A stretch of 64,000 nucleotides of DNA from Actinoplanes sp. NBC_00393. Lineage in GTDB: Bacteria > Actinomycetota > Actinomycetes > Mycobacteriales > Micromonosporaceae. The stretch lies in NCBI RefSeq assembly GCF_036053395.1, contig NZ_CP107942.1, positions 7,334,501-7,398,500 of the forward strand, read 5' to 3'. Position 1 is the stretch's first letter. Each line of letters begins with the position of its first letter. Positions 35,422 through 52,324 of the stretch are shown piece by piece. The notes under the pieces were generated by a model. The model had not been told where the DNA came from. It ran no database searches and worked only from the letters and a program-made list of their open reading frames with translations. The position numbers were made by a program, and so were the translations under genes.

Positions 35422-36228
35422 ATGACGTTCCACGCCTCGCCGCGCCGATACCTCATGTGCCGGCCCACCCACTTCGCGGTCACGTACCGGATCAACCCGT
35501 GGATGGATCCCACGGCGCCGTACGACAACGCGCTGGCGATCAGCCAATGGGAGAACCTGCGGCAGACGTTCCTCAGCCTCGGGCACACCGTCGACCTGAT
35601 CGACCCGCTGCCCGGCCTGCCCGACATGGTCTTCGCCGCGAACGGCGCCACCGTGGTCGGCGGGCGGGTGCTGGGCGTGCAGTTCCGGGACGCCGAGCGG
35701 GCCGACGAGGCCCCGGCGTACTCCGCCTGGTTCCGTGAGCGCGGCTTCGACGTGCACGAGCCCAAGCACACCAACGAGGGCGAGGGCGACATCCTGCTCG
35801 CCGGTGACCTGCTGCTCGCCGGCACCGGATTCCGGACCGCCCACGCGTCGCACGCCGAGACGCAGGAGGTCCTCCAGCGGCCGGTGATCACGCTGCAGCT
35901 GGTCGACCCGGCTTACTACCACCTGGACACGGCGCTCTGCGTGCTGGACGAGACCAACATCGCGTACCTTCCGCAGGCCTTCTCGCCGGGTTCGCAATCC
36001 GTGCTCCGGCAGCTGTTCCCGAATGCGATCATCGCAACGCCGGAGGACGCGGCGGTGCTCGGCCTCAACGCGGTCAGCGATGGCCGTACCGTGGTGCTGG
36101 CCGAGCAGGCCACCCGACTGGCCGCGGCCCTGCGCGCGGCCGGCTACCAGACCATCGGGGTCGACATGTCCGAGCTTCGCAAGGCCGGCGGTGGACCGAA
36201 GTGCTGCACGCTGGAGGTGCGCTCATGA
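35422..36228 (+). CDS. DDAH/arginine-dihydrolase-like guanidino-modifying enzyme
   Basis: A 268-residue amidinotransferase-superfamily protein. Landmarks are MCRPTHFAVTYRINPWM, GLPDMVFAANGA (Asn at about 74), the catalytic His in AYYHLDTALCVL (about H167) and the nucleophilic Cys in GGGPKCCTLEV (C261 or C262). It is usually named dimethylargininase (releases citrulline from methylarginine). However, an ornithine aminotransferase is coupled to it by an ATGA overlap, which would fit better if this enzyme yields ornithine directly, as the cyanobacterial arginine dihydrolases (ArgZ/AgrE) of the same superfamily do. The reaction is therefore open. Confidence 0.82.
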   Translation: MTFHASPRRYLMCRPTHFAVTYRINPWMDPTAPYDNALAISQWENLRQTFLSLGHTVDLIDPLPGLPDMVFAANGATVVGGRVLGVQFRDAERADEAPAYSAWFRERGFDVHEPKHTNEGEGDILLAGDLLLAGTGFRTAHASHAETQEVLQRPVITLQLVDPAYYHLDTALCVLDETNIAYLPQAFSPGSQSVLRQLFPNAIIATPEDAAVLGLNAVSDGRTVVLAEQATRLAAALRAAGYQTIGVDMSELRKAGGGPKCCTLEVRS

Positions 36229-39599: not shown

Positions 39600-40403
39600 A
39601 TGCGGACATCACGGTTCGCCGGGATCGGCCTCGCGGCGGCGACCACGGCCGCCCTCGCGATGGCCGGCTGTGCTGACAACGGCGTGGCCGGGCCCGGGGC
39701 CTCCAGCTCCGCCTCCGCATCCACGCCGGTGGCCACGGCGCCGTCCGCGGCCGGCTCGGCCGACCCGGCCGCCGTCCAGGCCCTCGCCGACGCCACCGCC
39801 AAGCTGGACAGCGAAAGCTTCAAGCTGACCGTCACCGCCGGTGTCGGCTTCCAGCTCACCGCGCTGATCGACGCGCCGAACGGCAACGGCACCGCCGAGC
39901 TGAAAGCCTCCGGCACCAACACCGAACTCACCGTGAAGTCGCTGCTGGTCGGCCAGGACCTGTACGCGCAGATCCCCGGCATCACCAAGGGCGACACCTG
40001 GACCCACCTCGACATGAGCCGGCTGCCGGACGGCGCGAACACCGGCCTGCGCCCCGGCCGGATCGACCCGGTCGACACCGCCCGGCTGATCAGCTCGACC
40101 ACCGACGTGCACTCGACCGGCGCGCGCAGCTACGCAGGCACGGTGGATCTGACCCAGGCGACCGGCGTCGCCGGCCTCGACAAGGTGACCATCGAGGGGT
40201 ACGGCCCGGCCGCTCAGCGGGTGCCGTTCACCGCCGGCCTCGACGAGCAGGGCCGCCTCTCCGCGCTGACGCTCCAGCTGCCGCAGTCGACGGTGCTCGA
40301 GGCGCTCTACACCGATTACGGCACAACGGTGACCGCCGCGCGCCCGCCGGCCGCCCAGGTCGTCGAGGCCCCGGAGGACGTTTACCGCGCCCTGGGCGGC
40401 TGA
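39600..40403 (+). CDS. LppX/LprG-like lipoprotein 2
   Basis: A 267-residue exported lipoprotein with signal and lipobox (AALAMAGCADN), an Ala/Ser-rich spacer, and the same domain plan as the preceding gene: TAKLDSESFKLTVTAGVG, GQDLYAQIPGI...TWTHLDMSRLP, PFTAGLDEQGRLSALTL and YTDYGTTVTAARPPAAQVVEAP. A probable tandem duplicate, now well diverged. Good RBS (AGGAGGGATCGAC). It may bind or shuttle lipids in the envelope. Confidence 0.75.
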   Translation: MRTSRFAGIGLAAATTAALAMAGCADNGVAGPGASSSASASTPVATAPSAAGSADPAAVQALADATAKLDSESFKLTVTAGVGFQLTALIDAPNGNGTAELKASGTNTELTVKSLLVGQDLYAQIPGITKGDTWTHLDMSRLPDGANTGLRPGRIDPVDTARLISSTTDVHSTGARSYAGTVDLTQATGVAGLDKVTIEGYGPAAQRVPFTAGLDEQGRLSALTLQLPQSTVLEALYTDYGTTVTAARPPAAQVVEAPEDVYRALGG

Positions 40404-41437
40404 CCCAGCGGCGTCCACAACGGAACGGTGTCCGGCCGGTTCTCCTCGATCCACGCGTCGATGCGGGCCCACCAGTCGTAGAGCCACTCGATGCGGTCCT
40501 GCTCACCGGCCGGCACCTCCTCCGGAGGCACACTCCAGAAACGCATCACCAACCGCTTGTCCATCGGCAGCTCGCGCCAGACGTCGGAGACGCTCAGCAT
40601 CCGGTCCAGGCCGGTGTGCGCCACGAAGATGACCCCGGCGTCCGGCGCGGCCTCGATCGCGGCCAGCAGCCCGCCCGGTTTCGGCGGCAGCAGATTGCGC
40701 AGGCCCTCGGCCTTCACGGCCATGTCATGCAGGCCACGGGCCCGGAGCCGGGCGATGGCGCTGGTCCGGCGGCGCGGGGTGAAGTTGCCGCCCTCCGGGA
40801 AGATCACGAAGGCGTCGTTGTGGTCCAGGCCGGTGGCGAGGTCGCCGATCTGCTCCTCGAGAGTCGACGTGCCGGTCCGCCCCGGCGAGACGAACCGGTT
40901 GGGCAGCCGGTTGAGCAGCACGTCCACCGCCGGGTCCCACTGCAGCGTCGCCTTCAGGACGATCCGCGGCTCCCGGGCGAACCAGTTGACCAGCGCGTGG
41001 ATCAGGGTGAACGAGTCACCCGGGCCGGCGTGCCGGCTCACCACGATCTCCGGGCGGCCGGGCTGCGCAGTGTCCGGGTCGGTGCCCACCACGTCGATCG
41101 CCAGGTGCAGCGACCAGCGGGCGAACCAGAACAGCGTACGAAGAAAATGCCCGGTGACCACGTAGTGCGCGCGCTGGAACGCGGCACTTCGGATCTTCCA
41201 CCCGAAACCGGAGGCGACCCAGAGGACGGCGAGCACGATCAGCGCCACCGCGTCCCAGACCAGGTAGACGATGACCAGGAAGACCACCCGTGGCACCCGC
41301 AGCCGGCCAGGCATCAGCGGCGAGACGGCCAGCGCGATCAGCAGCCAGACCGGCAGGGTGGTGAGCAGCGCCGACGCGAGCAGCACGACGGCGGGAGCGA
41401 TCAGCAGACGGCGTACCCAGACCGGCGGCAACCCCAT
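40382..41437 (-). CDS. PlsC-like membrane acyltransferase
   Basis: A 351-residue protein with two N-terminal membrane helices (about 10-35 and 50-75) and a glycerolipid acyltransferase domain. Motif I is VVSRHAGPGDSF (HxxxxD), and motif III is VIFPEGGNFTPRRR. It probably acylates a lysophospholipid or a related lipid. The ATG overlaps the stop of the patatin-like gene (TGATG), so a lipase and an acyltransferase are made together: a plausible phospholipid remodelling pair. It overlaps the convergent lipoprotein gene end by 22 bases. Confidence 0.85.
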   Translation of the reverse strand: MGLPPVWVRRLLIAPAVVLLASALLTTLPVWLLIALAVSPLMPGRLRVPRVVFLVIVYLVWDAVALIVLAVLWVASGFGWKIRSAAFQRAHYVVTGHFLRTLFWFARWSLHLAIDVVGTDPDTAQPGRPEIVVSRHAGPGDSFTLIHALVNWFAREPRIVLKATLQWDPAVDVLLNRLPNRFVSPGRTGTSTLEEQIGDLATGLDHNDAFVIFPEGGNFTPRRRTSAIARLRARGLHDMAVKAEGLRNLLPPKPGGLLAAIEAAPDAGVIFVAHTGLDRMLSVSDVWRELPMDKRLVMRFWSVPPEEVPAGEQDRIEWLYDWWARIDAWIEENRPDTVPLWTPLGQPPRAR

Positions 41438-42291
41438 CAACGACCACCCGCCTCCGGCAGCGGATGCACATTGGCCGCGAGGTAGCGACGGGACGCGGTG
41501 TACGCGCGACTGATCCGCCGGCCCACCGACGCCATGTCCCGGTACGCCCAAGGGGAGTCGTCCCGGCTCTCACCGCCACCGCTGGGAAGCACATGCACCC
41601 GTACATCGTCGGGCAACGAGGCAAGTTCCCGGGCGAACCGGTGCCGGCGGGCGATCTCGAACGCCACCTGAGCCACCTCCCACGGCCGGCGCGGAACGGC
41701 GAGCTGCCGCTCCACCCGGCCCACCTGGAGCACGAAGATCAGCTTCGCGCCGACCCGGACCGCCTCGCCGATCGGGATCGAGTTCACGATGCCACCGTCC
41801 ACATAGTGCTCGCCACCGATCTCCATCGGCGGGAGCAGCCCGGGCACCGCGGAGGAGGCGAGCACCGCGTCGATCAGCGGCCCGCTGTCGAACCAGTGCT
41901 CGGCCGCCCGCTCGATGCTGGCCGCGCAACAGCGGAACGGGATCTTCAGATCGGCGAACGCGGCGCCCTCCCCGAGCTCGCCCTCCAGCAGCCGGCGCAG
42001 CGGACGCGGCGAGTGCAGATGGGTACGCGCGGCGAAGCGCCGCATCTGGCGGCCGAGCGAGTCGCCGTACACCGCGGCGGCCTCCGGCGACGTCCACAGC
42101 CGGACCAGGCGGTCGGTGACCGACTCGGCGGGATCGGCGGCGACGAGTGCGCCGTTGACCGCGCCGATCGACGTGCCCACGACGACGTCGGGGCGGAAGC
42201 CGGCCCGGAACAACGCCCGCAGCATCCCGACCTCGACGGCGCCGAGGACACCGCCGCCACCGAGCACGAACGCCACCGGACCGTCGACCAT
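41437..42291 (-). CDS. Patatin-like phospholipase
   Basis: A 284-residue soluble lipid acyl hydrolase of the RssA/patatin class. The oxyanion loop is LGGGGVLGAVEVG, the nucleophile Ser is in VGTSIGAVNG, and the dyad Asp in YVDGGIVNSIP. It releases fatty acids from phospholipids. Directly upstream of, and coupled to, the acyltransferase gene. Divergent from the merR-trx pair, with 83 bases between starts. Confidence 0.9.
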   Translation of the reverse strand: MVDGPVAFVLGGGGVLGAVEVGMLRALFRAGFRPDVVVGTSIGAVNGALVAADPAESVTDRLVRLWTSPEAAAVYGDSLGRQMRRFAARTHLHSPRPLRRLLEGELGEGAAFADLKIPFRCCAASIERAAEHWFDSGPLIDAVLASSAVPGLLPPMEIGGEHYVDGGIVNSIPIGEAVRVGAKLIFVLQVGRVERQLAVPRRPWEVAQVAFEIARRHRFARELASLPDDVRVHVLPSGGGESRDDSPWAYRDMASVGRRISRAYTASRRYLAANVHPLPEAGGR

Positions 42292-42340
42292 GTGTTCATC
42301 CTCCCACGATCTTGCGAGTCCGCCCCGGCGCCGGCGGTTG

Positions 42341-42360
42341 CCTTGACGCCGACGTCAAGG
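42341..42360. promoter_or_regulatory. MerR operator
   Basis: Perfect inverted repeat CCTTGACG-CCGA-CGTCAAGG, 14 bases before the merR ATG. It carries the TTGAC/GTCAA half-sites expected of MerR-type operators. A TACCGT at 42363 could serve as the -10 of a nearly leaderless transcript. Confidence 0.65.
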
Positions 42361-42374
42361 CATACCGTCGGAGC

Positions 42375-42755
42375 ATGCTGATCGGAGAGCTGGCCGAACG
42401 GGCCGGTACCAGCCCGCGGACGCTGCGCTACTACGAGGAGCACGGGCTGGTCCGCCCCAGCCGGGACGGCAACGGCTACCGCCAGTACGACGACGCCGAG
42501 CTGCGTGTGGTGCACGAGATCCGTACGTTGCTCGCCGACGGTTTCGGCCTGGACGACATCAAGCCCTTCGTCGCCTGTCTGCGGGCCGGCAACGACGCCG
42601 GCCACGTGTGCCCCGACTCGGTGGCGGTGCTGCGCCGCCGGCTGGCCGAGGTGGACGACTACCTCGCCCGGCTCACCGAGGTGCGGGACCGGTTGCAGGA
42701 CCAGCTGGGCCAAGCGCTCGACAACCGGGAGATCCGATGCCAGATGAATCCCTGA
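42375..42755 (+). CDS. MerR-family regulator
   Basis: A 126-residue regulator. The winged helix-turn-helix is at the N-terminus (MLIGELAERAGTSPRTLRYYEEHGLV, then DGNGYRQYDD), followed by the dimerisation helix. Three cysteines (in VACLRAGN, GHVCPDS and, near the C-terminus, REIRCQ) could sense thiol stress or metal. It overlaps the thioredoxin gene by 19 bases, so it probably controls that gene. A perfect inverted repeat lies just upstream. Confidence 0.9.
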   Translation: MLIGELAERAGTSPRTLRYYEEHGLVRPSRDGNGYRQYDDAELRVVHEIRTLLADGFGLDDIKPFVACLRAGNDAGHVCPDSVAVLRRRLAEVDDYLARLTEVRDRLQDQLGQALDNREIRCQMNP

Positions 42756-43084
42756 CCGACGTCACCGACGACACCTTCGAAGCGGTCGTCAAGCAGTCAC
42801 CGATCCCGGTGCTGGTCGACTTCTGGGCCGAGTGGTGCCCGCCCTGCCGCCCGATGGCGCAGGTCCTGGCCGAGCTCGCCGAGGAGTTCGACGGGCAGGT
42901 ACGCATCGTCAAGCTCGACGTGGACGCCAACCCGGAGACCACCCGCGACCACCGGGTGACCTCGATGCCGACCCTGCTCTTCTTCCGCGACGGCGTGGTC
43001 ACCGCATCCCTCGTCGGCGCCCGCCCGAAGTCGGTCCTGCGCCGGGCTCTGACCAGCGCGACCACCCCGTACGCGAACGTCTAG
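42737..43084 (+). CDS. Thioredoxin
   Basis: A 115-residue thioredoxin fold with active site AEWCPPCRPM (CPPC instead of the usual CGPC) and the cis-Pro loop TSMPTLLFF. CPPC usually makes the protein more oxidising than standard thioredoxin. Encoded within the end of merR and probably redox-controlled by it. It converges on the zinc-finger gene, overlapping its stop by four bases. Confidence 0.9.
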   Translation: MPDESLTDVTDDTFEAVVKQSPIPVLVDFWAEWCPPCRPMAQVLAELAEEFDGQVRIVKLDVDANPETTRDHRVTSMPTLLFFRDGVVTASLVGARPKSVLRRALTSATTPYANV

Positions 43085-43296
43085 TCCAACTCGGGCATGG
43101 CCACCGGCTGTGGTCGGGGACGGCAGGTGCCGCATTGCACCGCGTCCTCGACCACCAGCGCCTCACTGCGGTCCCGGACCACCGAGCGGGTGACCTCCAG
43201 CAGGAACGGCCCGAACCGGGCGTGCTCCGGGCACACGCCCCGCCCGCAGAACCGGCACGTCGCGCGTGCCCCCTCGGCGCAGAACCAGCACAGCAT
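43081..43296 (-). CDS. Small zinc-finger protein
   Basis: A 71-residue protein with three CxxC pairs plus CxxxH (CWFC, CRFC, VCPEH, CGTC), clearly able to bind two metal ions, and a VVRDRSEALVVEDAVQ middle. It is reminiscent of short actinobacterial zinc-ribbon proteins such as DUF2180, but I cannot assign it firmly. It has an excellent ribosome site (GAGAGGAAGG) and starts 34 bases after the large M50/FecR gene on the same strand, so it is probably co-transcribed with it. Confidence 0.75.
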   Translation of the reverse strand: MLCWFCAEGARATCRFCGRGVCPEHARFGPFLLEVTRSVVRDRSEALVVEDAVQCGTCRPRPQPVAMPELD

Positions 43297-43330
43297 CGCG
43301 GCCTTCCTCTCTCTGACGGAGCGGCCGCGG

Positions 43331-46300
43331 TCAGTCAGACGATGGCGACGGCTCACCGGCCGGGCTGGAGGTCTCCGTCGGTTCCTCGGTGGGTTCCTTG
43401 GTCGTCGGGTCGGGGTCCGGCTCGTCCGGGGTGGTGGTCGTCGGGTTCGTGGTCGGCCGGGTCGTCGTACGGGTCGGCCGGGGAGCCGTCGGCACCGTGA
43501 TCGTCGGGTTAGCGGGCGGCCGGGCGGTGGTGGTCCGGGTCGGGACCGGGTTCGTCGTCCTCGTCGTCGTGGGCTGCACGTCGTCGTTGTTGTTACCCGG
43601 GTTGGGCGCCACCGGCGGAGTCGTACCCGGAACGGTGGTCGGCGTGGTCGACGGCGCGACGGGTGACGTGGGGGCGTCCACCGGGGCCGGCGCCTCGGAC
43701 GGCTCCGAACTCGGGCCGGCCGACGGCGGCGTGACGGCGATGCCGTCACCGCAGTTCAGCTCGGGGCTGCTGGACGAGGTGCCGCCGCCCCCGACAGCGA
43801 CCCGGCCCTTGGCGACAGCGACCGCCGCCGTGTCGACCGCGTACCAGGCCTGGCCGGTGCTGGTGACGTCACCCTGGGGCCGCCGCACGGTCAGGTGCAA
43901 CGCTTCGTACGCCCCACTCGAGCTGTTCGTGTCCGCCAGCAGGCGCCCACTGGTCAGGGTCAGCCGGCCGGCCGGCACCTGGTGCCGTCCGGTGTCCACC
44001 GCCACCTCGTTCACCTCGGCGCGGGAACCGGGGCAGAGCACCACGGTCGCCCCACCGGGGAAGGTCAGCAGGGCCCGCGACGAGGTGGGCACGTCGATCC
44101 GCGCGCCGGCGCTCAGGTAACGCTCGTCACCCTCCTGCAGGCTCTCCGACTCCCGGTCCGCGAGCGCGCTGGCCTGCCCGCGGTCCACGGCGAGCAGCAC
44201 GCGCTCGCCGGGCATCTCGGCCCAGGCCGGACCGCGGCTGATGTTGAGCCCGACGCTGATCAGGGCGAACACCAGGAGCAGGCTCACGAAGGCCCACATC
44301 CGGCGCTCGAAATGACTGTCCACGCCGTACTCCTCGGTGCCGTCCGGCGGACCGGGCGGCACCGCCAGCGGCGGGTGTGCGGCGCCCGGGCGGACCGCGA
44401 CCGGCGCGCTGGGCCGGATCGCCGGCATCTGCGCGCCCGCGCCGAACCCGCCGACCAGCGGCGGCAGATCGGCGGCGTCCGGAATGATCCAGAGCCGGAC
44501 CGGGGTACGCGCCTGCGCCACCATGCCGGGACTGCCGTCACCGACCGGGCCGACCAGGGTGCCCCGGCGCAGCTCGACGCCGTCCGGCATCGCGATGACC
44601 CCGGACTCGACGACGACCGCATGGGTCGGGCCGTGCAGAACCACCGGCGCGCCGGGGTCCAGGTCGACCGCGTGCGCTCCGGCGATGAGCGCCAGGCGCT
44701 GGTCCTCCTCGAGACCGGCGAGCGCCGGGGTGTCGGCGAAGAGTGCCTCGGCCTCCGCGCGTTCCTGCGGCGGCGGCCCGGGCATCGGGCCGACCACAGT
44801 GGCCACCGTGGACGCCGGCAGGGCGAGCAGCGTGGCGCCCGCGGCGTGCCAGTCGAGCTGGGCGCTGCGCCCGGTGAGCGCGTTGGCGAGGCCGACCACG
44901 CCGCCCGGGCCGACGTGGTGCCGGATGGTGCCGCCCGGGTCGCCGGGACGGCGGCCGTGCATGGCGCCCTCGACCACGACGTAGACGGCGGGCTGGTGTT
45001 CGCCGGCGAGCACCAGATGGCGACCGGTCGGCGGGTGCATCCAGCGGGCCCGCGCGGCCAGCGACTGCAGCGCCGGCTCGGCCAGGCCGCCCAGCTCCGA
45101 GGCGTGCAGCGCGGCGACCCGGCGGGGCAGGTCGGACTCGCGGTCGTGCTCGGCGGCCCGCTGCCGCCACCGGCTCCAGGCGGTGCCGAGGCGGCCCAGC
45201 AGGAAGTAGAACGGTGGCGCGACGATGCCCAGGAGCATCACGAGGAGCAGCAGCTTGCCGAAGAAGCCGGAATACCAGAGGCCGACCGCCAGTCCCTGCA
45301 CCCGGTCTTTCCAGAGCCGGTAGCCCAGGCCCAGGGCCGCGACCGACCAGAGCACCGCGAGCAGCCCGTACAGGGCGACCAGGCGACCCTCGCGGTCCAG
45401 GTTGGACCAGCGGGGACCGCGACGGCGCAGTCGGCCGGACACCCAGGACAGCCCGCGGGCCCGCAGGTCCGGGATCTCCAGCCAGTCCATCAGCAGGTAC
45501 TGCCCGTCCAGCGGCAGCAGCGGGCTGAGGTTGAAGAACACGTGCAGGTAGAAGAGGAACGCCAGCTTGAAGGCGATCCCGCCGGTGGCCGGGACGGCCA
45601 GCCCGATCACCTGGACCAGACCGGCCAGACCGAGCGCGGTGGCCGGACCGGACGCGGTGACCGCGATCCGGGCGCGGCGGCCCGCCATCCAGACGTCGCT
45701 GGTGTCGATGAAGACCGAGGGGATGCCGAAGTAGAGCAGCAGCCCGGCGACCGGGACCTCACGCCCGACCCGTTTCGCGGCGAGCGCGTGACCCAGCTCG
45801 TGGGCGGCGAGCACCAGCACGTTGAGCAACAGGAGTGCGATCGCACCCAGTAGGTACGAGTCACCCACCAGAAAGAGTGAACGGCTCCCCCGCTGCCAGG
45901 TGGCCGCGAACAGGAACACGCCGGCGAGCGCCAGCAGCCCGCCGGCCCCGACCGCGGCGCGGGTGAACAGGAACCGGCCGGCCGACCGGTAGAGGCTGGT
46001 GAGCAGGCCGTCGGCCTCGAAGGAGACGACCTGCCGGCCGCGGACCGCGGCGAGCAGCGAGTTGCCGACCCGCTTCGGCAGCGGCTCGCGGACCATCTCC
46101 CGCAGCGGCCGGAAAGCGTCCGTCGGGAGCTCTTCCAGCATCCGGTTGGCGGCCAGGTCGGCGACCACCCGGCGGACCTGGTCCGGGGCGAGCCGGCCGG
46201 CGATCCGGGCGAACTCGGCGACCAGCCGGGCCACCGTACTGATGCCGTCCATCATCAGCGCCAGCTGATACTCCTCCGGCGTCAGCCGGAGGTACGAGCT

Positions 46301-46525
46301 ACGGCCGCCTTCGTCCGGCGAACGGAGCATCACGTACCGGCCGCCGCGAACCGCGGTCCGGTGCCGGACCTCGATGCCGGGGCGCAGCACGGGACGGGCG
46401 CTGGAAGGGTTGAGCCGCTCGGCCACGGTGTGCCAAAGACCGGCGTCGGCGGGTCCGGACGGCACCCCCGGGGCACGGCCGGCCAGGGCTTCCCAAACGC
46501 TGGTCCGGGTCTCGACGTACGTCAA
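43331..46525 (-). CDS. M50-like membrane protease fused to cyclic-nucleotide-type and FecR domains
   Basis: A 1064-residue multi-domain membrane protein. Residues 75-150 look like a PqqD-type peptide-recognition domain (LRLTPEEYQLALMMDG, VARLVAEFARIAG). Residues 185-450 are a multi-helix M50 (site-2-type) metalloprotease with zinc motif HELGH (242-246) and the second motif NLSPLLPLDGQ (LDG 339-341). Two cNMP-binding-like folds follow (about 485-575 and 600-690, e.g. HLVLAGEHQPAVYVVVEG). One membrane helix (about 750-770) leads to an outside FecR-like beta domain (VDRGQASALADRESESL, AGARIDVPTSSRALLTFPGG) and a roughly 110-residue Pro/Thr tail. The start appears to be TTG with GGAGTGAGAGG upstream. 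Substrate unknown. Confidence 0.8.
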   Translation of the reverse strand: MTYVETRTSVWEALAGRAPGVPSGPADAGLWHTVAERLNPSSARPVLRPGIEVRHRTAVRGGRYVMLRSPDEGGRSSYLRLTPEEYQLALMMDGISTVARLVAEFARIAGRLAPDQVRRVVADLAANRMLEELPTDAFRPLREMVREPLPKRVGNSLLAAVRGRQVVSFEADGLLTSLYRSAGRFLFTRAAVGAGGLLALAGVFLFAATWQRGSRSLFLVGDSYLLGAIALLLLNVLVLAAHELGHALAAKRVGREVPVAGLLLYFGIPSVFIDTSDVWMAGRRARIAVTASGPATALGLAGLVQVIGLAVPATGGIAFKLAFLFYLHVFFNLSPLLPLDGQYLLMDWLEIPDLRARGLSWVSGRLRRRGPRWSNLDREGRLVALYGLLAVLWSVAALGLGYRLWKDRVQGLAVGLWYSGFFGKLLLLVMLLGIVAPPFYFLLGRLGTAWSRWRQRAAEHDRESDLPRRVAALHASELGGLAEPALQSLAARARWMHPPTGRHLVLAGEHQPAVYVVVEGAMHGRRPGDPGGTIRHHVGPGGVVGLANALTGRSAQLDWHAAGATLLALPASTVATVVGPMPGPPPQERAEAEALFADTPALAGLEEDQRLALIAGAHAVDLDPGAPVVLHGPTHAVVVESGVIAMPDGVELRRGTLVGPVGDGSPGMVAQARTPVRLWIIPDAADLPPLVGGFGAGAQMPAIRPSAPVAVRPGAAHPPLAVPPGPPDGTEEYGVDSHFERRMWAFVSLLLVFALISVGLNISRGPAWAEMPGERVLLAVDRGQASALADRESESLQEGDERYLSAGARIDVPTSSRALLTFPGGATVVLCPGSRAEVNEVAVDTGRHQVPAGRLTLTSGRLLADTNSSSGAYEALHLTVRRPQGDVTSTGQAWYAVDTAAVAVAKGRVAVGGGGTSSSSPELNCGDGIAVTPPSAGPSSEPSEAPAPVDAPTSPVAPSTTPTTVPGTTPPVAPNPGNNNDDVQPTTTRTTNPVPTRTTTARPPANPTITVPTAPRPTRTTTRPTTNPTTTTPDEPDPDPTTKEPTEEPTETSSPAGEPSPSSD

Positions 46526-46743: not shown

Positions 46744-48363
46744 TTACTGCGCCTCTTGGAGCGTGACCGTGACGGTCTGCTCGTCACCGTTGCGGGTGAA
46801 CTTGAGGGTCATCTTCTGCCCGACCGTGCCGGCCTGGACCGCCGCCACCAGATCGTCGGAGTCCTCGATCGCCTTGCCGTCGACCGAGGTGACCACGTCA
46901 CCCTGCTGCAGCTTGGCCTTCGCCGCCGCGCTGTCCCCGGTGATGCTGCTGATCAGCGCGCCGCCGTTCTCCGCGTCGGTGACGCTGACGCCGAGCGCCG
47001 GGTGGCTCACCTTCTTGCCCTGCATCAGGGCGTCGGCGACCTGCCGGGCCTTGTTGCTGGGGATCGCGAAGCCGAGGCCGATGTTGCCGGAGCTCGAGCC
47101 GGACGTGGCGATCGCCGAGTTGATGCCGACGACCTCGCCGTTGGTGTTGACCAGCGCGCCACCCGAGTTGCCCGGGTTGATCGGGGCGTCGGTCTGCAGC
47201 AGGCCGGTCATCGTGGTGCTCGACTGCTGCTGTTGCTGGCCGCCGAACGGATTCTGCTGCTGGTCCTCCTCGCCGCTGGACTGGATGGTCCGGTCCTTGG
47301 CGCTGATGATGCCGGCGGTGACCGACCCCTCCAGGCCGAGCGGGCTGCCCAGCGCCAGGACGGTGTCGCCGACCTGGATCTGCGAGCTGTCGCCGAACTT
47401 GGCGGCCTTCAGATCGCTCACCCCGGTGGCCTTGACCACGGCCAGATCGGTACGCGGGTCGGTGCCGACGACGCTGGCCGTGGCCTTCGTCCCGTCGGCG
47501 AAGATGATGTTCACCGACTCGCCCTGCGCGTTCGCGACCACGTGGTTGTTGGTCACGATGTAACCGTCGGCGCTGAGCACCACACCGGAGCCCTCGCCCG
47601 TCCCGGTGGTGATCGAGACGACGCTGTCCTGCACGGCGGCGGCGATCTGGGCCAGCGACGACCGGTCCACCACCCGGGTGACCGAGGAGTTGCCGGTCTG
47701 CACGGCTGCCGTGCCGTTGTCGTTGTCCAGGGCCAGTGCGGTGGCGGCGCCGACCCCGCCCGCGCTGAGCGCGATCAGCACGGCGGCCGCTCCGGCCACG
47801 AAGATCTTGCGGCCGCGGCCCGGGGTGCGCTGCTCGGTGGCGACCGGCTGGGCCCAGGCGGCGCCTTCGGTGCCGGGCTGCGCCTGGTTGGCCTGCCAGG
47901 CGGCGTACGCGGACTGGTGCCCGTAGTCCTGGTAACCGGTCTGCCCGTACCCGGCCGGCGGCTGGTAGCCCTGGTGCGGGTGGCCGTACGGCACCGCGGT
48001 GGTCGGGTAGTCCGGGCCGGCCGGCTGCGCCGAGGTCGGCTGCTGCCAGGGCGACTGGGCCCACGGGCTCTGCGGCGGCTGCGGGACCTGGCCGTGCGGC
48101 GGCTGAGGCGCGGGCGGCTGGAATGACGGCGGCTGCGGTGCCGGCGGCGCCGACGATTGCGGCGCCGGGGGCTGCGCGACGCCGGGGGCGTAGGCGGCCG
48201 AGGGGGCGGCGCCCGGGGAGTGCGGTGCCGCGGACTGGGGAGCGGCTGACTGCGGGGCAACCGACGGCTGCACAGCGGTCGGCTGCTCAGACTCCACCCG
48301 CTCCGCGCTGGTGTTGTCAGCGGCGGCGTCCGCGGGCCGCGGGTTGGTCTCGTTCTCGTTCAT
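46744..48363 (-). CDS. HtrA-like serine protease with PDZ domain
   Basis: A 539-residue envelope protease. The cytoplasmic N-terminus (about 190 residues) is Pro/Gln/Ala/Gly-rich and disordered. One membrane helix follows GRGRK (VAGAAAVLIALSAGGVGAA). The outside trypsin-like domain has His in VTNNHVV, Asp in RTDLAVVK and Ser in PGNSGGAL, with a Gln-rich loop (NPFGGQQQQQ). A C-terminal PDZ domain (from about 445) has HPALGVSV and LQQGDVVTSVDG. It lies 39 bases after a histidine kinase gene; the order regulator-kinase-protease matches mycobacterial mprA-mprB-pepD, where the protease degrades misfolded envelope proteins and feeds back on the sensor. Confidence 0.92.
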   Translation of the reverse strand: MNENETNPRPADAAADNTSAERVESEQPTAVQPSVAPQSAAPQSAAPHSPGAAPSAAYAPGVAQPPAPQSSAPPAPQPPSFQPPAPQPPHGQVPQPPQSPWAQSPWQQPTSAQPAGPDYPTTAVPYGHPHQGYQPPAGYGQTGYQDYGHQSAYAAWQANQAQPGTEGAAWAQPVATEQRTPGRGRKIFVAGAAAVLIALSAGGVGAATALALDNDNGTAAVQTGNSSVTRVVDRSSLAQIAAAVQDSVVSITTGTGEGSGVVLSADGYIVTNNHVVANAQGESVNIIFADGTKATASVVGTDPRTDLAVVKATGVSDLKAAKFGDSSQIQVGDTVLALGSPLGLEGSVTAGIISAKDRTIQSSGEEDQQQNPFGGQQQQQSSTTMTGLLQTDAPINPGNSGGALVNTNGEVVGINSAIATSGSSSGNIGLGFAIPSNKARQVADALMQGKKVSHPALGVSVTDAENGGALISSITGDSAAAKAKLQQGDVVTSVDGKAIEDSDDLVAAVQAGTVGQKMTLKFTRNGDEQTVTVTLQEAQ

Positions 48364-48402: not shown

Positions 48403-49986
48403 TTAGTCCTGGACGTTTTCTGTGAACCCTTTATCCGCATTTATGGTCGGCAAAGAGACTCGGAACGTTGCGCCCTGGTCCGGTTCGGAAACTACCTCGA
48501 CGGTTCCCTGGTGTGCCGCCACGATGGCCGCGACGATCGCCAGCCCCAAACCGGTGCCCGTCGCCTCCCGGTCAGTCTTGCGGGTCCGGGCCCCGTCCGC
48601 ACGATAGAAGCGCTCGAACACCCGCTCCCGCTGCTCCGGGCTCAGCCCCGGACCGGTGTCGGACACCTCGATCACCGCGGTGTCCCCGGCGCCGGCGTGC
48701 AGTCGCAGCGTCACCGCGGCGCCCGGCGGGGTGTGCACCACGGCGTTGGTCATCAGGTTGCCGATCACCTGGCGCAACCGGGCGTCGTCCCCGTACGCCA
48801 CCAGCCGCTCCGGCTCGTCCCGGATCTCCAGGTTGATCTCCCGGTCCGGCGCGGTGGCCTGCGCGGCCTGCACCGCGTCCAGCGCCAGCACCGGCAGCTC
48901 GACCGGGGCCAGGGTGAGCGGGCGTTCCCGGTCCAGCCGGGCGAGGAGCAGCAGGTCCTCGACGAGCAGGCCCATCCGGGCGGCCTCGTCCTCGATCCGG
49001 CGCACCAGCCGGGCCACCGCCTCCGGGTCGGACACCGCGCCCTGGCGGTAGAGCTCGGCGAACCCACGGATGGTGGTCAACGGCGTACGCAACTCGTGCG
49101 AAGCGTCCGCCACGAACTGCCGCATCTTCTCCTCGGACTGCAGCGCCCGCGACTCGGACCGCTGGGCGGCCTCGGCCGCCTGCCGGGCGCTGTGCTCGGC
49201 CGCGCGGGCCGCCTGCTCGGACTGTGCCCGGGCGATGAAGGCGGACTCGATCTGGGTGAGCATCGCGTTCAGCGCTACCGAGAGCCGGCCCAGCTCGGTG
49301 GTCGGTTCGGCGCCGTCCACCTCGGGGTCGGGCACCCGCTGACTCAGGTCGCCGGCCGCGATCCGGGCGGCGGTCCGCTCGATCTGCACGAGCGGGATCA
49401 GGCTCTGCCGGACCATCGCGGCGCCGACCGTGGCGAGCGCGATCAGCACACCCACGCCGACCAGAAAATCGACCCAGATCAGCCGGGCGATGACCGCGTC
49501 CACCCCGATCATCATCTGGGCGATGTGCAGAACTTCACCGTTGTTGAGCCGGGCCACCACCATCCGCCACACGTATTCGCCGTTCTGAGAACGGACCGTG
49601 TACGGCTCGCCGAGGTGCTCGTTGATCTCCTCCGCACCGGTGAAGAGCGGCGGAAGATCCTCCGGCGTCAACTGGGTGTCGTCATATTTGGGGATGCCGA
49701 TACCACTGACCGAGGTGCGGGCCACGTAGTAGTCGGGCGGAAGGAAGATCCGGCCGCCCGGGCCCTCATTGAACGCGTTGACCGTCTGAGTACCGAACGA
49801 CTTCAGCTGCGCGTCCATCCGGTCCAGCATGAAGCGGTTCAACGCGTACGTGCTGGTTGCGCTGATCATGGCGAGCGCAGCGAACACCAGCGTCAAGACC
49901 GCCGCGACCAGCTTGGTCCGCAGCGAGATCTTGCGCAGGCTGGTTTGGCGGGGCATCGACTCCCGGACCCGCTCGGCGAGGCTCAC
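48403..49986 (-). CDS. Two-component sensor histidine kinase (MprB-like)
   Basis: A 527-residue kinase with two membrane helices (about 25-47 and 170-195) around a roughly 120-residue extracytoplasmic sensor. Then come a HAMP linker (RTAARIAAGDLSQRV), an Ala/Glu/Gln-rich coiled coil, the H box FVADASHELRTPL and ATPase motifs: NLMTNAVVHTP (N box), DTGPGL, FERFYRADGAR and GTGLGLAIV. GTG start. It follows the regulator gene by six bases. In mycobacteria the analogous MprB senses envelope stress through chaperones and is damped by the HtrA protease. Confidence 0.93.
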   Translation of the reverse strand: MSLAERVRESMPRQTSLRKISLRTKLVAAVLTLVFAALAMISATSTYALNRFMLDRMDAQLKSFGTQTVNAFNEGPGGRIFLPPDYYVARTSVSGIGIPKYDDTQLTPEDLPPLFTGAEEINEHLGEPYTVRSQNGEYVWRMVVARLNNGEVLHIAQMMIGVDAVIARLIWVDFLVGVGVLIALATVGAAMVRQSLIPLVQIERTAARIAAGDLSQRVPDPEVDGAEPTTELGRLSVALNAMLTQIESAFIARAQSEQAARAAEHSARQAAEAAQRSESRALQSEEKMRQFVADASHELRTPLTTIRGFAELYRQGAVSDPEAVARLVRRIEDEAARMGLLVEDLLLLARLDRERPLTLAPVELPVLALDAVQAAQATAPDREINLEIRDEPERLVAYGDDARLRQVIGNLMTNAVVHTPPGAAVTLRLHAGAGDTAVIEVSDTGPGLSPEQRERVFERFYRADGARTRKTDREATGTGLGLAIVAAIVAAHQGTVEVVSEPDQGATFRVSLPTINADKGFTENVQD

Positions 49987-49992
49987 CGCCGC

Positions 49993-50706
<714 letters not shown>

Positions 50707-50804
50707 GCGGTCATTGTGTCCCCGGCCGCTGCGCCGGGGCTGCACACTTCCTGAAAATTATCTGTGAGCGAGAGCTTTCATGCCGCTTTCGGGTGGCGGG
50801 TGGG

Positions 50805-51566
50805 TCACGCGGCCAGGCGATATCCGGACCCGCCGAGGCTGGCCTGCGCGGCCCGGGCCAGCACGCGGCGGTCGGCGCCGGCTTCCGGGCGCAGCGCCGG
50901 CGCGGCCACCAGCGTGACGGTCAGCCGGCGGACACGGGCCACCCGCACCACCGAACTCCAGAGGGTGTCTCCGCCGACGAACGCCGCCTCGGTCGAGTCA
51001 TAGGTGATCGAGATCGGGACGACCGGCGCGCCGGCATCGATCGCGGCCTGGAAGAGAGCGGGACGAAACCGGCCGTGTTCGGCGCCGCAGAACGTCGTAC
51101 CCTCCGGAAAGACCGCAACCGACCGCCCGGCTCGCAACGCCCCGGCCACCTCGCCCACCGTCTGCGGCAGCGCCCGGGGCCGGGAGCGATCGATGAAGAT
51201 CGCGCCGGCCCGCCCGGCGGTGGCGCCGATCCCCGGCCAGGCCCGCACGTCGTGCTTGGCCACCAGGCGCACCGGCCGCACCGCCGTGAGCGCCACGATG
51301 TCCAGCCAGGAGACGTGGTTGGCGACCAGCAGGCTGCCGGGCCGCGGCACCGGGCCGCGCCACACCATCCGGACACCGAGAGCCGCGAGCATGGCGCGCG
51401 ACAGGCGGCCGAACGCGGCGCCACCCAGCAGAGACGCCGGCAGAAGACCCCCGAGGAGTACGCCGAGCAGCGCCGCCACCCGGACCACAGCGGAGACCGG
51501 GCTCGCGGCGGGACGCCCGCCGTCCCGGCACCGGTCCCCGCACTGCGAGCTGGGATGCCAGATCAT
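50805..51566 (-). CDS. Lysophospholipid-type acyltransferase (OlsA/PlsC-like)
   Basis: A 253-residue acyltransferase with a hydrophobic N-terminal segment (AALLGVLLGGLLPASLLGG), motif I VANHVSWLDIV, motif II-like GAIFIDRSRP, and motif III FPEGTT. It is coupled by ATGA to the upstream GNAT gene. An N-acyltransferase followed by a PlsC-like O-acyltransferase is the arrangement of ornithine-lipid synthesis (OlsB then OlsA), so it probably adds the second, ester-linked fatty acid. Confidence 0.85.
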   Translation of the reverse strand: MIWHPSSQCGDRCRDGGRPAASPVSAVVRVAALLGVLLGGLLPASLLGGAAFGRLSRAMLAALGVRMVWRGPVPRPGSLLVANHVSWLDIVALTAVRPVRLVAKHDVRAWPGIGATAGRAGAIFIDRSRPRALPQTVGEVAGALRAGRSVAVFPEGTTFCGAEHGRFRPALFQAAIDAGAPVVPISITYDSTEAAFVGGDTLWSSVVRVARVRRLTVTLVAAPALRPEAGADRRVLARAAQASLGGSGYRLAA

Positions 51567-52324
51567 CGCGTCGCGCCCAGGAAGTGCCGGCGATAGCGGG
51601 GGTCCAGCCGGTCCATGGAGAACAGCACGTAGAAGTCGGCGCAGTCGAAGTCCGGGTCGTACGCCGGTTCGCCACAGACCCAGCTGCCCAGCCGCAGATA
51701 GCCGCGGAGCAGCGGGGGCACCGCCACCTTGGGGTCGGCGACCAGGTCCTCCCCGGGCACCCAGGGGCGGCGCGGGCGGACCCGCAGGGCCGGCGGTGAG
51801 AGGTGCTTGGCGTTGAGCCGGGCGCGCACCCCGGCGGCGACGTGGCCGCCGTCGGCGAGCGGCACCGAGGCGCAGCCGCCCAGCCAGCGCAGGTTGTTGA
51901 GGTGCAGGTACCGCGCGATGCCGGCCCACATCAGGTTGACCACGGCGCCGGAGCGGTGGTCCGGGTGCACGCAGGAGCGGCCGATCTCGACCAGGTGGTC
52001 GCGCAGCGGCCGCAGCGCGCTCAGGTCGAACTCGGTGTCGGCGTACCGGCGGCCGGCCAGCTCGGCGGCCCGTGGGGACAGCATCCGGTAGGTGCCGACG
52101 ACGGCTCCGGTGGCGTCGTCCCGGACGATCAGGTGGTCGCAGTAGGCGTCGAAGCCGTCGGCATCGAGCCCGGCGGCCGCGCCCGGGAGGTTCGCTCCGA
52201 GTTCGCCGGCGAAGACGTCGTGGCGCAGACGCTGCGCGGCCTCGACGAGGCTCGCGTCGTCCGCGAGGAGGAGGGTGTAGCCGCTGGTCCCGGTGGGTGC
52301 GGCGGCGGTCATCAGAACTGCCAT
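51563..52324 (-). CDS. OlsB-like N-acyltransferase (GNAT, Acetyltransf_5)
   Basis: A 253-residue member of the Acetyltransf_5 GNAT group, which includes OlsB, the ornithine N-acyltransferase that uses hydroxyacyl-ACP. Recognisable are LRHDVFAGELGANLP, DGFDAYCDHLIVRD, VGTYRMLSP, EIGRSCVHPDHRSG and VPPLLRGYLRLGSWVCGEPAYDPDFDCADFYVLF. With the coupled PlsC-like gene it forms a plausible ornithine-lipid operon. Hemolysin-like annotations of this family are historical. ATG 52324. Confidence 0.82.
   Translation of the reverse strand: MAVLMTAAAPTGTSGYTLLLADDASLVEAAQRLRHDVFAGELGANLPGAAAGLDADGFDAYCDHLIVRDDATGAVVGTYRMLSPRAAELAGRRYADTEFDLSALRPLRDHLVEIGRSCVHPDHRSGAVVNLMWAGIARYLHLNNLRWLGGCASVPLADGGHVAAGVRARLNAKHLSPPALRVRPRRPWVPGEDLVADPKVAVPPLLRGYLRLGSWVCGEPAYDPDFDCADFYVLFSMDRLDPRYRRHFLGATR

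Follow-up and report, generated by a model that had tools for sequence, protein, structure and literature searches.

A candidate two-gene membrane signalling module in Actinoplanes, built on an intramembrane-protease fold whose zinc site is lost in several lineages

In regulated intramembrane proteolysis a site-1 protease commonly acts before a site-2 protease, as described for DegS and RseP on RseA (PMC10202637), and E. coli RseP is also reported to cleave FecR (PMC8144685). The locus considered here, in Actinoplanes sp. NBC_00393 (Micromonosporaceae), encodes a fusion protein that appears to combine a peptide-recognition (RRE) domain, a site-2-type (M50) protease core, two cyclic nucleotide-binding (CNB) folds and an outside FecR domain; a small zinc-finger protein is encoded beside it. 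It lies in a 64-kb stretch (the window: contig NZ_CP107942.1, positions 7,334,501 to 7,398,500) of a single-contig genome of 11,433,213 bases, with a G+C content of 70.5% across the window. Coordinates below are window positions; both genes, the domains described, and the HtrA, kinase and response regulator genes are on the minus strand. Among the matches listed in searches of the open-licence PMC literature, no title concerned the fusion architecture or the zinc protein: PqqD with FecR and Actinobacteria returned 0 papers, site-2 protease with Actinoplanes also 0, and cyclic nucleotide-binding domain with site-2 protease a single, unrelated one.

The fusion gene (43331..46525) encodes 1064 amino acids from a TTG start, in the order RRE/PqqD-like, M50, CNB, CNB, transmembrane helix, FecR, Pro/Thr tail. 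Apart from itself, its closest protein match is from Actinoplanes aureus (85% identity across 92% of the query). The zinc-finger gene (43081..43296, 71 aa) follows after 34 bases. Together they are read here, tentatively and with somewhat less than even confidence, as a two-gene membrane signalling module: a receptor or sensor with the zinc protein as its partner, for which cutting would be dispensable in several lineages.

The two genes tend to stay together. Within the family the zinc gene adjoins the fusion at 19 of 20 short loci, the window's own included, and in 18 of 19 longer stretches, the exception (G024) having them on separate contigs; the longer stretches come from 19 of the 24 other genomes in which the zinc protein was matched (all but G002, G005, G018, G025 and G027). 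The intergenic gap is -1 to 43 bases in the 15 loci that reach the zinc gene, except for one of 310. Across 61 family genomes, 24 have both genes, 1 the zinc gene only, 2 the fusion only, and 34 neither (zinc in 25, fusion in 26), with the fusion counted above 300 bits, a threshold set after the gap in the match list had been viewed; weaker matches, such as eight FHA-type proteins at 109-175 bits, were scored absent, and in G005 the zinc gene lies beside a weak-scoring fusion fragment. In the genus set the zinc gene is found at 36 of 45 loci, and two of the nine loci without it (L171, L172) are on contigs that end inside the fusion gene. The zinc protein itself has C3, C6, C14, C17, C22 and H25, a second CxxC, and a conserved PEL near its end; the CxxC, CxxC, C, H and further CxxC are near-invariant in 82 full-length members, and the tail is conserved as well. 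It falls below the cut-offs of both the DUF2180 (16.4 bits; cut-off 22.2) and C5HCH zinc-finger (18.7 bits; cut-off 26.3) Pfam models.

The association extends to other classes of Actinomycetota, where the enzyme is shorter. In a phylum draw of 296 genomes the zinc protein was found in 21, the window's own included, and 19 stretches were fetched from 18 of the 20 others (all except G203, a weak match, and G273). At 16 of these 19 deep loci the zinc gene is directly beside the gene for an RRE-M50-CNB-CNB protein of 698-752 residues, ending after the second CNB; at L198 the two are 1.8 kb apart. Eighteen of the 296 genomes have both, 3 the zinc gene only, 3 the enzyme only, and 272 neither. The enzyme search used the first 445 residues of a shorter protein as query and found 20 genomes above 200 bits plus the window's own at 157; the 200-bit threshold was again chosen after the gap had been viewed, and G291 (150 bits), G203 and G285 (both about 115 bits) were counted absent. 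Fisher values for the two co-occurrence tables are 1e-13 and 6e-23, ignoring kinship between genomes. The linkage to the zinc gene proposed in the initial annotation thus holds both in the family and, beside the shorter relative, at the deep loci. In all 17 shorter proteins examined, each of the two CNBs retains the Glu and the Arg of the cassette. Close relatives, in Actinomycetota and Solirubrobacterales assemblies, carry database names such as "CRP-like cAMP-binding protein/Zn-dependent protease" and "cyclic nucleotide-binding domain-containing protein". A C-terminal histidine, often in WQH, WEH or AEH, is present in all 17 short proteins (L196-L214), and L198 (G128) has two zinc-gene copies, separated by about 9 kb, and a single enzyme gene close by.

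The second line of evidence is the fate of the protease site. Every one of the 45 genus genomes surveyed carries the fusion gene. Among the 47 genus copies examined (45 loci, the window and L040) a zinc ligand is lost in 20, spread over 20 of the 45 genomes, and in 18 of the 45 no intact copy was found; two genomes (G073, G080) have a dead copy plus a second, intact one elsewhere. In each of these, the dead copy occupies the HtrA locus and has no zinc gene beside it (L149 in G073, L145 in G080), whereas the intact second copy does have one (L155 and L152, respectively). Of 120 homologues listed, 85 keep the His-Glu-His-Asp set and 35 have lost it. A FastTree phylogeny of 82 sequences, with the shorter relatives as root and L171 and L172 omitted, requires at least four zinc-site changes (a 16-copy dead clade, L129, L136/L137 and L138); the branches that separate the deep group from the family group are long and flagged as such. 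An unrooted tree of the 120 homologues needs six. The window's nearest relative has YELGH, at 91% identity across the kept columns. A sequencing error was rejected as the source of YELGH, which is present at three genus-set loci on two branches.

Loss of the site does not coincide with loss of the protein. The zinc gene adjoins 17 of the 20 dead copies, the FecR domain is kept in all 20, and HtrA is present at 19 of their 20 loci, the twentieth (L173) starting at a contig end. In the M50 part, the median ratio of nonsynonymous to synonymous substitution rates (dN/dS) is 0.23 and 0.33 in two dead groups vs. 0.25 and 0.36 in two active ones, as computed from chosen members per group, for pairs with an M50 dS below 1.2; one dead group (A_dead) is a single pair. 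Constraint on the M50 core is kept after loss of the zinc site, though not unchanged. In each of the five groups it is the FecR domain that shows the highest median dN/dS (0.34-0.72), which would be expected for a sensor on the outside. A pseudogene reading of the fusion was rejected, given dN/dS below 1 and the presence of the gene in every genus genome.

The initial annotation had listed a peptide-recognition domain, an M50 protease with intact HELGH and LDG motifs, two cyclic-nucleotide-type sensor folds, a FecR domain and a Pro/Thr tail. This list is borne out, the CNB and FecR folds by structure and the RRE, more tentatively, by sequence. The RRE/PqqD-like domain (residues about 44-135; 46121..46396) is assigned through profile matches to NF041824 (from residue 75) and to the ApyI model NF050149 (residues 44-131); PF05402 (PqqD) is unmatched in the window protein, above cut-off in the relative L098, and just below it in L091. 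The structural model of this block has a beta-beta-beta-alpha-alpha-alpha order that fits a PqqD-like winged helix, at a confidence (pLDDT) of only 35-63. The M50 membrane core (residues 170-462; 45140..46018) has six long helices. HELGH (242-246; 45788..45802), intact here and lost in many close relatives, is within the modelled helix 224-252, and LDG (339-341; 45503..45511), which we take to be the third zinc ligand of the M50 site, is just ahead of helix 341-346. With both motifs intact, the fusion of this species is possibly still a protease.

The first CNB-type fold (residues 465-580; 44786..45133) has Leu in place of the phosphate-binding-cassette Glu, and retains an Arg (R553) one alignment column away from the canonical position; the second, degenerate one (586-688; 44462..44770) lacks both Glu and Arg. 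The CNB fold was found twice in the model, and dominated the whole-model structure search of the PDB. By sequence, the PDB yielded weak CNB matches (lowest E value 0.00091); with the single window sequence as query, no match fell below 0.03. None of 67 aligned family sequences has the cassette Glu in either CNB, making it unlikely that the family form binds cyclic nucleotides in the usual way; cyclic-nucleotide sensing by these folds, as initially proposed, is accordingly not supported. A seventh membrane helix (residues 731-762; 44240..44335) is followed by GP-WAEM juxtamembrane residues that are invariant in 60 of 60 aligned sequences, and is predicted to run N-in/C-out. Because the CNB part filled the whole-model results, the outside FecR/cell-surface-signalling domain (768-935; 43721..44224; invariant cysteines 831 and 925) was modelled and searched alone; this confirmed the FecR signalling-domain fold, the closest matches by structure being anti-sigma regulators. 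The 129-residue tail (43334..43720; 34 T, 33 P; low pLDDT) probably spans the cell wall.

The fusion start looks genuine: among 15 genus loci covering the start of the gene, 14 have TTG at the same position and the other has GTG; a purine-rich site upstream is conserved as well, and TYVET directly follows the first residue in 89 of the 120 listed homologues. The TTG, which had been called unusual, is thus conserved among relatives.

As a mechanism, in the shorter form a cytosolic RRE would recognise a peptide or protein tail, and the six-helix M50 core would act on that tail, perhaps gated by the two canonical cyclic-nucleotide domains. The zinc protein encoded next door would be the usual partner, possibly bound by the RRE. 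In Micromonosporaceae this arrangement would have been re-wired: the two CNBs, having lost the nucleotide-binding Glu, would act as structural transmission parts, and the extra helix, the FecR sensor and the probably wall-spanning tail would shift the input to the cell surface, the outside domain then controlling the RRE/CNB part and the zinc protein if the signal runs inward. In several Actinoplanes lineages the zinc site would then have been lost, with the protein working as a receptor or scaffold. The shorter form may be ancestral, judging from its wider spread; the tree was itself rooted on it. A wider claim, put forward with more reserve and rather doubtful as a whole, is that this is an undescribed system, found in distant Actinomycetota classes, of an RRE-M50-CNB-CNB membrane enzyme and a zinc protein, in which one family has switched the input from cyclic nucleotides inside to a FecR domain outside and the protease has repeatedly turned receptor. 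If true, one conserved module would unite the RRE, the intramembrane protease, the cyclic-nucleotide folds and the small zinc protein, and the system would make loss of catalysis observable within one bacterial genus; the natural pairs of intact and zinc-site-dead proteins there make the roles of a non-cutting intramembrane-protease fold and of the zinc protein testable.

Several observations weigh against the proposed module. The linkage has exceptions: G030 and G033 have the fusion without a zinc match, the zinc gene does not adjoin the fusion in L042 (among the longer family stretches) or in L145, L149, L159, L164, L167, L168 and L170 of the genus set, and at two deep loci (L204, L205) the fetched stretch has a zinc gene without the enzyme. 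The HtrA/kinase setting is not conserved at the deep loci, and the FastTree phylogeny connects the shorter form to the fusion through long branches, which makes the ancestral status of the former tentative. Confidence in the modelled RRE is low, and the contact of the zinc protein with it is one that we infer. No output partner (transcription factor or sigma factor) was identified in the scans made. In the REYAR group, M50 is relaxed relative to CNB (0.229 vs. 0.068), and the zinc site is intact in most genus genomes, including the window's, where proteolysis may matter.

Upstream of the fusion, after a gap of 189-295 bases in 14 measurable genus loci, is a conserved gene for an HtrA/DegP-like serine protease with a PDZ domain (46744..48363), followed by genes for a sensor histidine kinase (HAMP-HisKA-HATPase, 48403..49986) and an OmpR-type response regulator (49993..50745), conserved as well. 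HtrA is beside the fusion at 42 of 45 genus loci, and all three are present in 16 of 18 fusion-bearing family stretches, HtrA being up to about 7.6 kb off in some; at the 19 deep loci there are HtrA matches in 1, kinase in 2 and response regulator in 3. DegS is likewise an HtrA-type protease. By analogy the locus probably serves envelope stress. On the other side, genes for a MerR-type regulator and a thioredoxin (42312-43084) converge on the zinc gene, the thioredoxin stop overlapping its end by 4 bases; a MerR match is found at that place in 13 of the 15 loci L003-L017. Genes for a patatin-like lipase, an acyltransferase and an ornithine-lipid-type acyltransferase (40382-42291 and 51563-52324) border the locus, in many relatives too, and give it a lipid-related setting.

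Among alternatives, the best surviving is a self-contained relay from wall to cytoplasm, a sharpened form of the idea in the initial annotation: HtrA would trim the FecR part just outside the membrane, and the M50 core would then cut the adjacent FecR helix, in cis or in trans, as RseP does. The reported action of E. coli RseP on FecR (PMC8144685) and the HtrA/M50 setting make this reasonable for intact copies such as the window's, and the predicted orientation of the FecR helix and its invariant juxtamembrane residues agree with it. However, the CNB part would be tethered to the M50 helices, such that a cut in the FecR helix frees no soluble fragment; the shorter relatives stop after the second CNB; and 20 of 45 genus genomes have a copy that has lost the zinc site yet keeps FecR, with HtrA still at 19 of the 20 loci. 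The relay is unlikely overall. Its parts and their linkage stand, while cyclic-nucleotide sensing and an essential role for proteolysis are not supported as first proposed.

The zinc protein might instead be the M50 substrate, cut or released into a regulator in the manner of SpoIVFB on pro-sigma K, a known pair (PMC11486902). Strong linkage and co-occurrence and the conserved zinc-protein tail would fit. The zinc gene beside 17 of 20 dead copies indicates that its product seems needed without cleavage there, which argues against a substrate-only role and makes this possibility a poor one.

A maturation protease of the daptide or epipeptide type is less probable again. In such a system the RRE would bind the leader of a ribosomal peptide and the M50 core would cut; RRE-peptidase fusions occur in daptide clusters (PMC10036551), and M50 proteases are described in pathways for ribosomally synthesized and post-translationally modified peptides (RiPPs; PMC10885120). 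All 42 members searched match both the daptide protease model NF041824 (118.6 bits in the fusion, over residues 75-420) and the LiaK/YydH model NF058609 (39.6 bits), but against cut-offs of 300 and 225, respectively. A Pfam scan covered 19 window proteins, a part of the window that includes the fusion and zinc pair; it recognised no RiPP cluster and no further RiPP-type domain, only a class-III aminotransferase (PF00202, 36201-37439) of a family also listed for daptide clusters (PMC10036551). The arginine-deiminase/DDAH-like gene beside it (35422-36228), with no further daptide-type enzyme seen, suggests that the aminotransferase belongs to amino-acid metabolism. Presence in all 45 genus genomes is also unlike a biosynthetic cluster, and the zinc site is often lost. 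Classical FecI/FecR-type signalling through a sigma factor, for which the confirmed FecR fold and its anti-sigma structural matches might speak, is very improbable: the 19 scanned proteins showed no sigma-factor domain, and no anti-sigma domain was recognised in the fusion or the 42 members. Neither the sigma factor nor the RiPP cluster that the initial annotation suggested seeking nearby in relatives was recognised among the window proteins of that scan.

Compared with known systems, the proposed module shares the M50 core with daptide DapP and epipeptide YydH/EpeP/LiaK, and with DapP a fused RRE also, but scores far below the cut-offs of their models, adds two CNBs, FecR and the tail, and has lost the zinc site in many copies. 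The uncharacterised RRE-M50-CNB proteins named as CRP-like cAMP-binding/Zn-dependent proteases have the same domain order and, at 16 of 19 loci, the same zinc gene beside them; they differ in their canonical CNB cassettes and C-terminal His, and have no FecR, extra helix or tail. Eight more distant proteins in other Micromonosporaceae genera (L091-L098) have an RRE-M50 core, at 32-47% identity, with an N-terminal CxxC..CxxC stretch and an FHA domain (Pfam confirmed it in L091 and L098, the two of the eight scanned) in place of the C-terminal CNBs and FecR, and a zinc motif of HESAH or HEAAH. The RRE-M50 core has thus been joined to more than one kind of cytosolic sensor fold. The CxxC..CxxC stretch of these eight proteins lies on one chain with RRE-M50 and is reminiscent of the zinc protein encoded separately next to the fusion. 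With the FecR/PupR regulators the fusion shares the fold of the outside domain and, by prediction, an N-in/C-out helix; it differs in being joined to an M50 membrane core, and neither an anti-sigma domain nor a sigma partner was found in the scans described. A last comparison is with the iRhoms, which have the rhomboid fold, of serine type, whereas the fusion is an M50 protein in which the losses have recurred in a single bacterial genus. In iRhoms, too, an intramembrane-protease fold is described as kept after catalysis was lost (PMC6451368), and the zinc-site-dead fusions may be their M50 counterpart.

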